Part shown: positions 3,300 through 60,778 of the stretch, piece after piece
Position numbering within the stretch: the stretch's first letter is position 1
How the letters are laid out: each line of letters starts with the position of its first letter
Source: Heterostelium album PN500
Lineage: Eukaryota > Evosea > Eumycetozoa > Acytosteliales > Acytosteliaceae
DNA: 64,000 nt
Direction: 5' to 3'
NCBI RefSeq assembly: GCF_000004825.1
Contig: NW_008805068.1
Location: forward strand, 372,001 to 436,000
The notes under the pieces: model-generated
Seen by the model: the letters and a program-made list of their open reading frames with translations, nothing else
The model's database searches: none
Told to the model about the DNA's origin: nothing
Made by a program: the position numbers and the translations under genes

Positions 3300-3873
3300 A
3301 ACTCTTGTTGTTGGTGGTCTTCGATGCTGTTTGTGGGTGTCAAGAATCTCTCCTTATGAATAATATGATGAGAGTACCCAGTATCTCATTCAATTATTTT
3401 CCAGAGTTGAACTATTTCAAATTTATTCTGATGAACTTGATGTCACTCCTGATAGAATAGTTGAATTGAGGATTCAATGTCGGTTGAAGACTATCGCTAT
3501 TCGATTACTAGACCAGGATATCTCACACACCTTCCTCTAATGCCAAATCTGAATAACATCTTTGTGAATGGTTACTACTGTTACAAAAAACAATTACAGC
3601 AACTTTCTGAATTCAGTATTCGAGAGTACACCAAATGGCAATGGAAATGGAATCGAATCATTCTATATTAGAATTTGCAAGGATATGAACGATGAACCAA
3701 CATACAATTGTATTGACTTCTTGAAACCACTGGTCATGTTGCATGCCAAAACATTGAAATCTATCGAACTCTACTATGGATATTATTTAATGGATATCCA
3801 AGACACACCTTGTGAGAGAATTGAAAGAGTTGGTTCCAACAATGAAACAACACAGCTATTCATTCATTTGTAG
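3300..3873 (+). pseudogene. Decayed LRR-like gene fragment
   Basis: Coding-like sequence is spread over two overlapping frames (3477-3671 and 3568-3873). It reads as leucine-rich-repeat-like segments such as LPLMPNLNNIFVNGYY and LKPLVMLHAKTLKSIELYYG. No single frame runs through and no start is apparent. The upstream part (3185-3370) repeats a short phrase containing GTCAAGAAT..CTCCTTATG. A second decayed relative lies at about 9650-10290 on the other strand: both share TATTGACTTCTTGAAACC and the following bases. It is best read as a dead member of a local LRR-like multigene family. The exact family is not recognised. Confidence 0.55.
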
Positions 3874-4106
3874 AAATTCTTGGAATAATTTAGATTCATT
3901 TTAAAAGTTGTGCAAAGAAAAAAATTGTCTTCTAGTATTTCAATATCTTACCAATCAGAAAAATATTTACTTCTATACCAATATTGTTAAAGATGAAGAT
4001 GAAGAGGATTATAACTATTTTATTGTCCATAAAAAAATAAAATTAAAAGTAAACTTTTTTTCGTTTTTTCATTTTTTTGTTGAATATTTTTATTTTTAAC
4101 TACGTA

Positions 4107-54878: not shown

Positions 54879-55196
54879 TAGACTCCAAGAAATATAAAAA
54901 CACAATGAAAAAGACCATGGAAAACCAATTTTGTTCCATTTTCAGAAATAATCAGGAACTCGATAAGGAATCCACTTCCAGAAATAACCAGGAATTCTGT
55001 AAGGAATCAAAATAAAGAACTATATAAACAATTCACAGAGTCACAATTATTAATCAAAACTCTCAAGGTAAATATAACTGATATTCAATACATTAAATAA
55101 AGCACAATTATTAATCAAAACTCTCAAGTGTTCTCTCTTTGATTGTATTATATACATACTCTGATTTATTCTAAATAAATCCATCTTGTTACAAAT
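54879..55196. repeat. Repeat-rich spacer
   Basis: Contains a 26-bp perfect direct repeat beginning CACAATTATTAATCAAAAC at 55042-55067 and 55103-55128. It also has an imperfect tandem pair of about 30 bp (54943-54972 and 54979-55009, sharing AGGAA and GTAAGGAATC-like ends). No gene is seen. The source of the repeats is unknown. Confidence 0.5.
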
Positions 55197-55206
55197 TTGG
55201 TTACAA

Positions 55207-55208
<2 letters not shown>

Positions 55209-55250
<42 letters not shown>

Positions 55251-55453
55251 AGCGCAATGGACCGCACTAAGGAGGTGTTTTTTATCACCTCCTCACGAGT
55301 TGGTGTCAATGTATTGCCCCATGGGCTCTTAGGACATCAGTTTTATTATATACGTTCCGGTAGCGGGGAAACTTAGTCATTACCGAGCCTCGAACCCGGG
55401 TCGAAGTAGTGAAGGCCCACGAATGAACCATTTCACTAACTACGTCCTTCGAC
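55209..55453 (-). mobile_element. tRNA-derived SINE-like retroposon
   Basis: Read on the minus strand the element starts GTCGAAGGACG at 55453. It carries a pol III A box-like TAGTTAGTGAAATGG (55442-55428) and a B box GGTTCGAGGC (55396-55387), about 31 bp apart as in a tRNA. A body of about 135 bp follows, with two hairpins (CGGTA/TACCG and AGGAGGTG/CACCTCCT). It ends in a 38-nt poly(A) tail (55249-55212). The same 12-bp sequence TTGGTTACAAAA flanks it at 55197-55208 and 55454-55465, a typical target duplication of LINE-type retrotransposition. Base composition is much richer in G and C than the surroundings. It sits about 50 bp downstream of a tRNA-Lys gene in the same orientation. Confidence 0.85.
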
Positions 55454-55511
55454 TTGGTTACAAAATGTTTTACTTGATGCGCGCATCAAGGATATTAATT
55501 AAAAAAGAAAG

Positions 55512-55584
55512 CGCCCAATGTGGGGCTCGAACCCACGACCACACGGTTAAGAGCCGTGCGCTCTACCGACTGAGCTAACCGGGC
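55512..55584 (-). tRNA. tRNA-Lys (CTT anticodon)
   Basis: A 73-nt cloverleaf on the minus strand. The acceptor stem is GCCCGGT/ATTGGGC with two G-T pairs and discriminator G. The A box is TTAGCTCAGTCGG. The anticodon stem-loop is CGGCTCTTAACCG, with anticodon CTT in the loop CTCTTAA. The T arm is GTGGGTTCGAGCCCCAC. There is no intron, and CCA is not encoded. tRNA genes are preferred integration landmarks for retrotransposons in dictyostelids. Confidence 0.97.
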
Positions 55585-56048
55585 TTTGATGTTGCTAATT
55601 TCGCGATTAAAAATTTTCAATTTTTTTTATTTTGTTATTATTATATTCGTCGAACTCAAATTAATGTGTGGTGAAACATACACATAAAATCTCTGTCCAC
55701 ATGTTATAGCCGCAGCCAACTCTATCTTTATCACAGTGATTCCTGTTCATACCGATCTCAATATCTACAAGATAAAACATATTCACAACAAACTTGGTAT
55801 CATCTATTCAAATTGCAGAAGCACCAAGCAGTGGTACTGCTACACGTCATCGAACAGTTTTCAGCCACCACTACATCCAAGAAGAGATCGAACGTAATGT
55901 AAACAAAGAACAGATTTTAAATAAATTAGATCTGAGGATAATTTTTAAAAGATTTATGAAATCATACTCTTCTTTTATTGAGATCTCAATTCCACTTTAA
56001 TTCTACCTTGTATTTGAAATTATTAAAACGAATTTTATTTATTCAAAC
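55585..56048. other. Spacer upstream of the tRNA gene with unassigned open segments
   Basis: Between the tRNA and P450 copy 1. Positions about 55694-55900 have an unusually balanced base composition and open frames in two registers (one reading HVIAAANSIFITVIPVHTDL, the other SSGTATRHRTVFSHHYIQEE). This suggests a fragment of a decayed coding sequence I cannot identify. The remainder is AT-rich. Confidence 0.4.
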
Positions 56049-57700
56049 TTATCTTATTTGAATATTACATTTGAAGGGAGTTGGAGATAGTGCTAAACCA
56101 TATACCATTGATTCTTCAATAAATTCAGAATTTGGTGAAGTAAATTTAAATGATTTGATCAATTGTGTAACCAAAACATAAATCTCCACTTCAGCAAGAT
56201 TCATTCCAACACAATTTCTTGGTCCACTTCCATAAATTATTTTGACTCTATTAGAATTCTTTTGTGCATCCACACCAATAAATCTCTCTGGTTTGAACTC
56301 CATTGGATCATCCCAATACTGTTCTGATAACAGAGAACTGTGAATATTTTGAAATACTTGAATCTAATAAATTTTTAATTAATTAAAATAAAATATAAAA
56401 TAAAATATTAAAATATATTATTAAAATAAACTATATATATTACATATTAAATACATACACCTTTCTTTACATAATAACCACGGAAATAGCCATCTCTAAT
56501 TGCTTCATGTGAGTTACCAAATCCATTAATTGGATATCTTCTCATTGTTTCTCTAATCACAGCGTTGGTGTATGGTGTTGATATTTTTGAAGGTATTCTA
56601 TTCTCAACACTTGTGAGTTCTAAATATAACTTTTCTTGAACCTCTGGATAATTACAACAAACTCTGATTAAACATAATATAACTAAAGACTTTCAATATT
56701 TATAAAATATTAATTAATACTCAATCAAAATAACTTTTTTTCTTTTTTTTGTTTTTACAGTAGTTCAGATTCCGAAAGATTGAATTCGGCATTAGTAAAA
56801 AAAAAGTCCAATATTTTGAAATATTTCCCAGCCTTTAACTTCCATGAATATATGAATCTGCTATGTTATTGGGTGACTCTGAACCTGATATTCTATCTTC
56901 AACTAGTTTGCCAATATAGTCTTCATATTGCTCATTAATTCTTTTAAATCTGTTGAAGATGTTGATGATTTCTTAAACTTTTATTAAAGAAGAGTATTCT
57001 GATATCATAGGACGTCCTAAAATAGGTTGATTTCCTTGGATTATATTTAATATTTCAATAGCTTGACCATCCAACTCATATGGAAATTGTTTGTCGAATA
57101 GTTTGGTTAATAAGATATTCAGAGTACATATCTTTACAAATGGAAATAAATTAATTGGTTCACCTGATTTCGATTGAACTTTTAAACATTCATAGAGTTT
57201 TGAAATCTCTTCCACCATTGATTCCTCTGATTTTTTCAATTTACTTGGTGTAAGGTGTTGAAGAAGAATCGATCTTAGATATGTATTATATTCACCATTG
57301 GATGATGTCATACTCTCTCCACGATTGATATCGGTTCTTTCTTTCTTTTGAAATCGATTAACAAATAGATCATTGTAAGTAAATGCTTCTTGAATAGTTT
57401 CCGGACCTGTTAAAACTATTCCTTCGACCGATCCCATTTTAAATCTAAACACTTCACCATATCTCCTGAAAAGACGATCCAAATCATTATTAATATTTTC
57501 ACCAAGTAAATGTAAATGACCAATCAAAGGTATTGCCAATGGTGATGGTGGACATTTTTTATAAGGATTCTAAAATAAAAACAAACAATATTAAATTTAA
57601 TTTTGTAGTATTTAAAATATCTAAAGTTATAAATTACGTATCATACCTTTTCATATAAAATCCATAAGATAAAAACAATAACTATTGATATTAAAATCAT
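56049..57700 (-). pseudogene. Cytochrome P450 (CYP508-like) pseudogene, copy 1
   Basis: Exon 1 (57700-57647) encodes the membrane anchor MILISIVIVFILWILYEK. Exon 2 starts at 57569 with NPYKKCPPSPLAIPLIGHLH and contains NINRGES-type and HLTPSKLKKSEESM blocks of dictyostelid P450s. After about 57000 the frame is lost (SSLIKV then stop), where copy 2 still reads the expected helix start. The K-helix ETMRR and PEVQEKLYLELTSVENR lie near 56560-56660, and the heme loop reads YGSGPRNCVGMNLAEVE (56049-56303), with Tyr where P450s have Phe. The I-helix region is garbled. It is a host gene decaying by several frameshifts. In its working form such an enzyme would be an ER mono-oxygenase. Confidence 0.8.
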
Positions 57701-59110: not shown

Positions 59111-59143
59111 AATCAAAAAGATTCTATACAACCTTTTTTATTT

Positions 59144-60778
59144 TCAAACTTCTCTTATTTGAATATTACATTTGAAGGGAGTTGGAGATACAGCTAAACC
59201 ATATACCATTGATTCTTCAATAAATTCAGAATTTGGTGAAGTAAATTTAAATGATTTGATCAATTGTGTAACCACTAAATAAACCTCCAGCTCAGCAAGA
59301 TTCATTCCAACACAATTTCTTGGTCCACTTCCAAAAATTATTTTGACTCTATTAGAATTCTTTTGTGCATCCACACCAATAAATCTCTCTGGTTTGAACT
59401 CCATTGGATCATCCCAATACTGTTCTGATAACATTGAACTGTGAATATTTTGAAATACTTGAGTCTATTAAATTTTTAATATAATTTTTACTTAATTAAA
59501 ATATTATATAATAATAAACTATATATATTACATATTAAATACATACACCTTTCTTTACATAATAACCACGGAAATAGCCATCTCTAATTGCTTCATGTGA
59601 GTTACCAAATCCATTTATAGTATATCTTCTCATTGTTTCTCTAATCACAGCGTTGGTGTATGGTGTTGATATTTTTGAAGGTATTCTATTCTCAACACTT
59701 GTGAGTTCTAAATATAACTTTTCTTGAACCTCTGGATAATTACAACAAACTCTGATTAAACATAATATAACTAAAGACTTTCAATTTTTATAAAATATTA
59801 ATTAATACTCAATCAAAATAATTTTTTTTCTTTTTTTTTGTTTTGTTACAAGTAGTTTCAGATCCAGCAAAGATGAAATCGGCAATAGTAAAAAAAGTCC
59901 AATATTTGAAATATTTCCAGCTTTAAATTCATGAATATATGAATCTGCTATGATATTGGGTGACTCTGAACCTGATATTCTATCTTCAACTAGTTTTCCA
60001 ATTATAGTCTTCAACTTAGTCATTAATTCATTATAATCTGTTGAAGATGTTGATGAATTCTTAAACTTTTTATAAAAGAAGAGTAGTCTGATATCATAGG
60101 ACGTCCTAAAATCAATTGAATACCTTGGATTATATCACATGTTTCCATAGCTTGACCATCCAACTCATATGGAAATTGTTTGTCGAATAGTTTGGTTAAT
60201 AAGATATTCAGAGTACATATCTTTACAAATGGAAATAAATTAATTGGTTCACCTGATTTCGATTGAACTTTTAAACATTCATAGAGTTTTGAAATCTCTT
60301 CCACCATTGATTCCTCTGATTTTTTCAATTTACTTGGTGTAAGGTGTTGAAGAAGAATCGATCTTAGATATGTATTATATTCACCATTGGATGATGTCAT
60401 ACTCTCTCCACGATTGATATCGGTTCTTCCTTCTCTTTGAAAATCGATTAACAAATAGATCATTGTAAGTAAATGCTTCTTGAATAGTTCCCCCGGACCT
60501 GTTAAAACTATTCCTTCGACCGATCCCATTTTAAATCTAAACACTTCACCATATCTCCTGAAAAGAAGATCCATATCATTATTAATATTTTCACCAAGTA
60601 AATGTAAATGACCAATCAAAGGTATTGCCAATGGTGATGGTGGACATTTTTTATAAGGATTCTAAAATAAAAAAAAACAATATTAAATTTAATTTTGTAG
60701 TATTTAAAATATCTAAAGTTATACCTTTTCATATAAAATCCATAAGATAAAAACAATAACTATTGATAATATAATCAT
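59144..60778 (-). pseudogene. Cytochrome P450 (CYP508-like) pseudogene, copy 2
   Basis: Same layout as copy 1. Exon 1 is 60778-60725 (anchor MIILSIVIVFILWILYEK). Exon 2 from 60661 contains PLAIPLIGHLHLLGEN and a long shared block. The C-terminal exon runs from about 59460 to 59144, with the intact heme motif FGSGPRNCVGMNLAELE (Cys kept). It is less decayed than copy 1, yet several defects remain. A two-base gain after VLTGP garbles about 20 residues before the frame is regained at RTDINRGES. A one-base loss follows SSFIK near 60070. The I-helix (AGSETT, visible in another frame near 59860) is out of register. It lies head-to-head with F-box-like member 3. Confidence 0.8.

Follow-up and report, generated by a model that had tools for sequence, protein, structure and literature searches.

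A SINE family found preferentially downstream of tRNA and other small-RNA genes in Heterostelium album PN500

The genome of Heterostelium album PN500 contains a SINE family whose members are found preferentially on the 3' side of small-RNA genes. We consider it probable that these SINEs carry a pol III promoter, are mobilised by a TRE3-like LINE and are targeted to the ends of pol III-transcribed genes. SINEs are well known as such and are usually scattered; what is new here is a SINE family with a target choice for pol III genes. The description starts from a single copy in the window, i.e. the whole stretch of 64,000 nucleotides analysed here (contig NW_008805068.1, 372,001 to 436,000), to which all positions given without a contig name refer.

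Structure of the element

The copy lies on the minus strand of the 64-kb window between 55212 and 55453. Listed in its own direction of reading, the locus comprises the following features:

55511..55584, minus strand: tRNA-Lys(CTT), the target gene of the SINE (RF00005, 67.1 bits)
55477..55486, no strand assigned: GC-rich palindromic box ATGCGCGCAT, about 25 bp downstream of tRNA-Lys, of a type seen behind most tRNA genes examined
55454..55465, no strand assigned: target duplication at the 5' end, TTGGTTACAAAA on the plus strand, exact over 12 bp
55212..55453, minus strand: SINE copy, 204-nt body plus A38 tail (from the sequence and genome matches)
55453-55250, minus strand: the 204-nt body (from the sequence)
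55428..55438, minus strand: A box TAGTGAAATGG, fitting TRGYNNANNNG (pattern match)
55386..55396, minus strand: B box GGTTCGAGGCT (pattern match, one of two sites in the window)
55270..55293, minus strand: 3' hairpin of the body, AGGAGGTG...CACCTCCT (from the sequence and RNAalifold)
55212..55249, minus strand: poly(A) tail of 38 nt, the longest A run among the 21 loci of the family
55197..55208, no strand assigned: target duplication at the 3' (tail) end, TTGGTTACAAAA on the plus strand, exact over 12 bp

As tRNA-Lys(CTT) is encoded on the minus strand at 55511-55584, the SINE is located downstream of it in the same orientation, at about 57 bp (56 in the distances compiled below). Three extra bases separate the A38 tail from the 12-bp repeat. 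The initial annotation had described pol III boxes at tRNA spacing, a poly(A) of 38 nt and exact 12-bp duplications at a place downstream of this tRNA gene, and each of these features was read again from the letters. The longest stop-free stretch in six frames has 48 codons; the element thus has no long frame of the kind that distinguishes TRE3 (ORF1 and ORF2 with APE endonuclease and reverse transcriptase). Its final 14 nt before the tail are unlike the family: other copies read AATGGACC there, and in the window copy this 8-mer is present at 55256-55263 as the reverse complement, i.e. as a local inversion at the 3' end.

The A and B boxes of the window copy start 42 nt apart, which corresponds to tRNA spacing. 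The former fits the A-box consensus TRGYNNANNNG. The B-box pattern GGTTCGANNCY has two sites in the 64-kb window (the SINE and tRNA-Lys) with 0.20 expected by chance, and two such sites were attained in 2 of 100 shuffles. No TTTT occurs in the body. In the family, both boxes are intact in L001, L002, L004, L005 and L006, nearly intact in L003 and damaged in L007, L010 and L012. Judged from these motifs, the SINE carries a putative internal type-2 pol III promoter.

The designation of the element as tRNA-derived, in contrast, is not supported. The boxes are present, but there is no cloverleaf: cmscan gave no match between the tRNA profile RF00005 and the SINE even at E≤10, and a loose ARAGORN match was not above chance as it was equalled by 342 of 500 shuffles. 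The best alignments with six tRNA genes span 8-36 nt, mostly in the T arm, and the likeness to tRNA goes no further than the two boxes and T-arm-like letters. A tRNA origin of the SINE head was consequently rejected as not shown. RNAalifold on 15 copies predicts most of the AGGAGGTG/CACCTCCT hairpin and a 3-pair hairpin at CCG..CGG, but two-sided changes are found in only 1 of 24 predicted pairs, so that the structure remains a prediction.

A TGTAACAAGATGGATTTAT-like repeat, perhaps an LTR, occurs behind tRNA genes (window ~55000-55197, minus strand; L002, L078), and the SINE copies L001 and L002 lie at or within it. Another repeat (..CTTGTGGAACAGATCATAATTAGTTAAC..) was found again in L004, L018, L089, L104, L120 and L125. 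Near the tRNA locus there are also long direct repeats (56033-57631 and 59134-60723) with 94-99% identity in four stretches about 3.1 kb apart, which are perhaps tandem gene copies.

A dispersed family with marks of reverse transcription

With the window copy as query, the 32.9-Mb assembly (39 contigs) yielded 23 matches that represent 21 distinct loci, two of them split into two matches each. As repeat counts from this search are lower bounds, the family has at least 21 loci. Queries with the 3' part and the 5' part gave 17 and 16 matches, respectively, all of them at loci already among the 21. One short fragment at a class I RNA gene (L034) was excluded from all counts because it was found through its target. 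The copies fall into two subtypes set apart mainly by short indels, and several are identical across the compared part, which suggests that the family was recently active.

A run of at least seven A within 60 nt of the match end is present at 19 of the 21 loci but at only 4.1% of 6300 control places; for at least ten A the values are 17 of 21 and 1.4%. Within this distance no A tail was found at L012 and L021, and the tail of L016 was measured at the end of its LINE part (see below). For target duplications 17 loci were compared (L012, L020, L021 and L022 were left out; L021 and L022 are short head fragments). Flanking repeats of at least 10 bp (11-18 bp) occur in 8 of these 17 and in 8 of 272 mismatched flank pairs, while at the other nine copies no repeat of 10 bp was found. 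Seven copies are truncated at the 5' end (L008, L011, L013-L015, L018 and L019). Tails, duplications and 5' truncations together are marks of target-primed reverse transcription, and a short non-coding element with dispersed copies of this kind is a SINE family. The check proposed in the initial annotation, a genome-wide count of copies with poly(A) and target duplications, thus shows that the element is not single-copy.

Two loci are composite. The first, L016, lies behind the RNase P RNA gene; here SINE nt 1-73 are followed by about 50 nt of other sequence, a LINE A piece (nt 3597-3964 of the LINE A cut, with a gap) and poly(A), the whole being bounded by an exact 14-bp repeat. This arrangement fits a template switch during reverse transcription by the LINE machinery; it can also be a LINE nested in the SINE with subsequent deletion, since the LINE part has no 3' end of its own. 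An interpretation of the ~50 nt as an inverted LINE segment was rejected (alignment score 23 against a shuffle mean of 26). The other composite locus, at C30:231644, is a SINE that is flanked by a 14-bp repeat and lies 69 bp behind an intron-containing tRNA-Tyr; it is interrupted by a LINE C 3' end that has its own 8-bp repeat (by eye). In this region (C30:231630-232364, L017/L009) the LINE C 3' end and a further insert of about 350 bp in the B-box region all lie inside the 14-bp repeat.

Target genes and insertion distances

At 13 of the 21 loci a small-RNA gene on the same strand ends 19-157 bp upstream of the SINE. These genes are seven tRNA genes (one of them tRNA-Sec; RF01852, 66.5 bits), RNase P RNA (RF00009, 99.7 bits) and five class I RNA genes, two of which are sub-threshold. 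The distances from the 3' end of the tRNA gene to the SINE are 56 bp (Lys), 77 (Leu), 65 (Val), 77 (Glu), 79 (Sec), 59 (Gly) and 69 bp (Tyr), so that 7 of 21 loci are in the position of TRE3-like elements (same orientation, 40-150 bp downstream of a tRNA gene) within a range of only 56-79 bp. Behind RNase P RNA (L016) the distance is 49 bp. The class I RNA loci (RF01414, Rfam cut-off 41.5 bits) are:

L014: 43.8 bits, 42 bp to the SINE
L020: 53.8 bits, 37 bp to the SINE
L021: 52.4 bits, 157 bp to the SINE, with a LINE A 3' end between gene and SINE piece
L022: 32.0 bits, sub-threshold, 60 bp to the SINE
L015: 38.2 bits, sub-threshold, 19 bp to the SINE

Most class I RNA genes have a AACCATAA-like box about 60-70 nt upstream. 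Of the two sub-threshold calls, that at L015 has an ACCATAA box at the usual distance and that at L022 has none upstream. As RNase P RNA and class I RNA genes are also followed by copies, the target is wider than tRNA genes: the tRNA targeting assumed at the outset holds for seven loci and was too narrow for the family as a whole.

A comparison with random sites, as initially proposed, supports a site preference. As 63 of 1916 candidate tRNA genes were scored, 1977 target genes were assumed. With this number and a 200-bp zone, chosen after the data had been seen, the probability of random insertion into a target zone is 0.006, which gives P(≥12 of 21)=6e-22 and P(≥13)=3e-24. The chance bound, which we call generous, is below 1e-20.

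At the remaining eight loci (L003, L005, L006, L007, L010, L012, L018 and L019) neither ARAGORN nor Rfam at E≤5 revealed a pol III gene on the SINE strand in the 200 bp upstream. Among them L003 is a young copy with an 11-bp duplication, and a search for repeats in its surroundings yielded just three, all partial and local, at a distance of about 3-5 kb; at L005 a tRNA-Glu is situated about 205 bp off in opposite orientation. Not every small-RNA gene is a target: the ~300 bp downstream of two U6 matches contain neither a SINE nor LINE A or a LINE C tail. The second of these U6-like genes (L129, C27:1433655-1433795, minus strand) has about 35 extra nt beside the ACAGA box and no AACCATAA box in the 110 nt upstream, where the other U6 gene has one. 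Behind two SRP RNA matches (one below the cut-off) LINE A pieces begin only at about 0.8-0.9 kb downstream; they were not counted as targets because of this distance and because the flanks are common to both.

It could be argued that insertion occurs more or less anywhere and that copies survive mainly behind pol III genes because these are gene-free safe sites, which would mean selection and not targeting. The eight copies located elsewhere would agree with this, as would the compact genomes of dictyostelids (PMC5006619, excerpt). Selection alone, however, hardly accounts for a window as narrow as 49-79 bp with fixed orientation behind tRNA and RNase P RNA genes, and the window of LINE A overlaps that of the SINE. 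Moreover, among the seven copies at least 98% identical to the family (L001-L004, L008, L009 and L013) six are at tRNA genes and only L003 is not. We thus regard selective survival as quite unlikely to be the explanation.

The variety of hosts bears also on the possibility that the copies are tRNA pseudogenes or segmental duplicates of tRNA loci together with their flanks. Such an origin would account for A and B boxes at tRNA spacing and for the position beside tRNA genes. It is hardly compatible with the missing cloverleaf or with hosts that comprise seven tRNA species, RNase P RNA and class I genes with differing flanks, and it is contradicted by poly(A), 5' truncation and target duplications at unrelated sites; its probability appears to be minimal.

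Candidate targeting cues

Behind the tRNA genes of this species a GC-rich palindromic box of the CCGCATGCGG, CCGGATGCGG or ATGCGCGCAT type is common, typically about 15-40 bp downstream of the genes examined. With up to two mismatches, 55 of 60 tRNA 3' flanks (L069-L128) contain it in their first 60 bp, against 0, 1, 0 and 0 of 60 flanks for the four 60-bp stretches that follow. The core words were chosen after the flanks had been seen, so the evidence is this positional control and not the count. The box may be a 3' element of the tRNA genes of this species. It accompanies six of the seven SINE-linked tRNA genes and is absent behind tRNA-Sec, RNase P RNA and 15 of 16 class I genes, from which it follows that SINE targeting does not need it. 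A separate idea, that the SINE itself carries the GC box of tRNA 3' flanks (CCGCTACCGG), was rejected because 25% of shuffles match equally well.

The B box of the target gene is another candidate. At L014, L016, L020 and L022 a loose B-box pattern, with which a degenerate box could be missed, has no site in the upstream 600 bp, and at L015 (-333) and L021 (-564) its sites are distant. Since RNase P RNA and most class I targets show no pattern match, the B box is probably not the sole cue. Common features that are left for pol III targets are pol III itself, TFIIIB or the termination zone. That the SINE and its helper LINEs recognise the pol III machinery itself and not the B box, so that insertions mark pol III units, is a tentative proposal with nearly even prospects.

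Resident LINEs and the proposed way of mobilisation

The initial annotation had pointed to the zone used by TRE3-type elements, and a resident TRE3-like LINE does occupy it at overlapping distances. This LINE A was read at C16:177700-183600, where frames of 259 aa (ORF1-like) and 1107 aa (ORF2) are found. The latter matches RVT_1 (2e-33) and Exo_endo_phos (8e-9), the former has no match in Pfam. The C16 copy has poly(A) and a 14-bp target repeat (by eye) and lies about 50-65 bp downstream of the SINE L005 in the same orientation. In a scan of the 3' flanks of 60 tRNA genes (of 63 listed) the first aligned base of LINE A is 53, 54, 63 and 75 nt behind the gene at L108, L090, L111 and L091; it is also present at 138 nt (L073) and, reversed, at 38 nt (L084). 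Behind a class I RNA gene (L028) it follows at 32 nt. Altogether, 7 of 37 LINE A 3' ends are within 3 kb of one of the 63 listed tRNA genes (five downstream on the same strand, one downstream reversed and one upstream), and 3 of 37 are near the 16 class I genes, all downstream on the same strand. The LINE A fragment of L073 (C25:5500-5930) is preceded by a stretch that by eye resembles class I RNA and is located about 50-100 bp behind tRNA-Lys(TTT).

A second 3' end with a higher copy number, LINE C, probably belongs to a LINE too, as a reverse transcriptase match precedes one copy by 1.4 kb. Among 40 scored tails (of 106 candidates) ten lie within 3 kb of one of the 63 listed tRNA genes, all ten downstream on the same strand, and none is near the 16 listed class I genes; at L039 a LINE C tail stands about 36 nt behind a class I gene. 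The SINE and LINEs A and C have a common landing zone.

What they do not have in common is sequence. The 3' end of the SINE body, which the initial annotation proposed to compare with resident TRE elements, matches neither the LINE A nor the LINE C tail, the two LINEs compared, and a common SINE/LINE tail was rejected for both. The body as a whole likewise has no sequence in common with LINE A or the LINE C tail. If a LINE moves the SINE, recognition of its RNA would therefore probably proceed via poly(A).

These comparisons are also relevant for the possibility that the element is a fragment or an internally deleted derivative of a LINE, similar to TRE5-A.2, and not a SINE with its own pol III promoter. 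Poly(A) and a landing zone common to LINE A and LINE C would be in line with such a derivative, and non-autonomous derivatives of TREs have been described for D. discoideum (PMC5391098, excerpt). Yet the body is unlike LINE A and the LINE C tail (the only LINEs compared), all 17 of 17 genome matches of the SINE tail are at known SINE loci, and the A and B boxes are preserved in the copies named above. A LINE derivative is thus unlikely.

For the SINE with its own promoter the following pathway is proposed. Transcription by pol III would be driven by the internal A and B boxes, and the resulting poly(A) RNA would be taken by the endonuclease/reverse transcriptase (ORF2 protein) of a TRE3-like LINE, for which LINE A and the high-copy LINE C are candidates. 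The pol III complex or its termination zone would presumably guide this RNA and protein to the 3' flank of pol III units, and insertion by target-primed reverse transcription would occur mostly 40-80 bp behind pol III-transcribed genes. Mobilisation of the SINE by a LINE in trans would fit the overlapping LINE A sites and one of the two readings of the L016 chimera.

Relation to known elements and significance

The tRNA-derived poly(A) SINEs of rodents and primates are moved by L1 and are dispersed. The family described here resembles them in A and B boxes, in a poly(A) instead of a common LINE tail, in target duplications and in 5' truncations; it differs in its clustering behind pol III genes, and its tRNA origin is not demonstrated. 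LTR elements of the Skipper-2 type have, unlike the SINE, no poly(A) tail. The zone downstream of tRNA genes is used by Skipper-2 and other LTR elements as well (excerpts of PMC5006619 and PMC5911963). With TRE3 of dictyostelids, including TRE3-like elements of Polysphondylium pallidum, the SINE has the oligo(A) end in common (excerpts of PMC5911963 and PMC5006619), but TRE3 is a coding LINE, whereas the SINE body has 204 nt and contains A and B boxes. In D. discoideum an internal or external B box has been linked to TRE3 targeting (PMC5911963, excerpt), whereas the SINE is found also behind RNase P RNA and class I genes, most of them without a B-box match.

A functional parallel to the proposed mobilisation is TRE5-A.2, which has no ORF2 and is mobilised in trans by TRE5-A.1 with its target choice kept; as proposed for the SINE, it is non-autonomous and uses the ORF2 protein of a TRE (PMC5391098, excerpt). 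TRE5-A.2, however, is a derivative of its own LINE with insertion sites upstream of tRNA genes, while the SINE contains no sequence of LINE A or the LINE C tail. A word search in a survey of dictyostelid elements (PMC5006619) found no mention of a SINE. Among the open-licence papers listed by literature searches, titles and abstract openings described neither a dictyostelid SINE nor site-specific SINEs near tRNA genes.

A SINE behind genes without a detected B box would separate two models of TRE3-type target finding. For the abundant class I RNAs of dictyostelids the polymerase is described only as possibly pol III. If it is true that the pol III machinery itself is recognised, the class I insertions would provide an independent genomic argument that these RNAs are pol III products. 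Each SINE copy would then point to a pol III unit, and the eight loci without a recognised gene would hold unannotated ones. With its preference for the zone behind pol III genes, the SINE would represent a parasite of a parasite that keeps the safe-site strategy.
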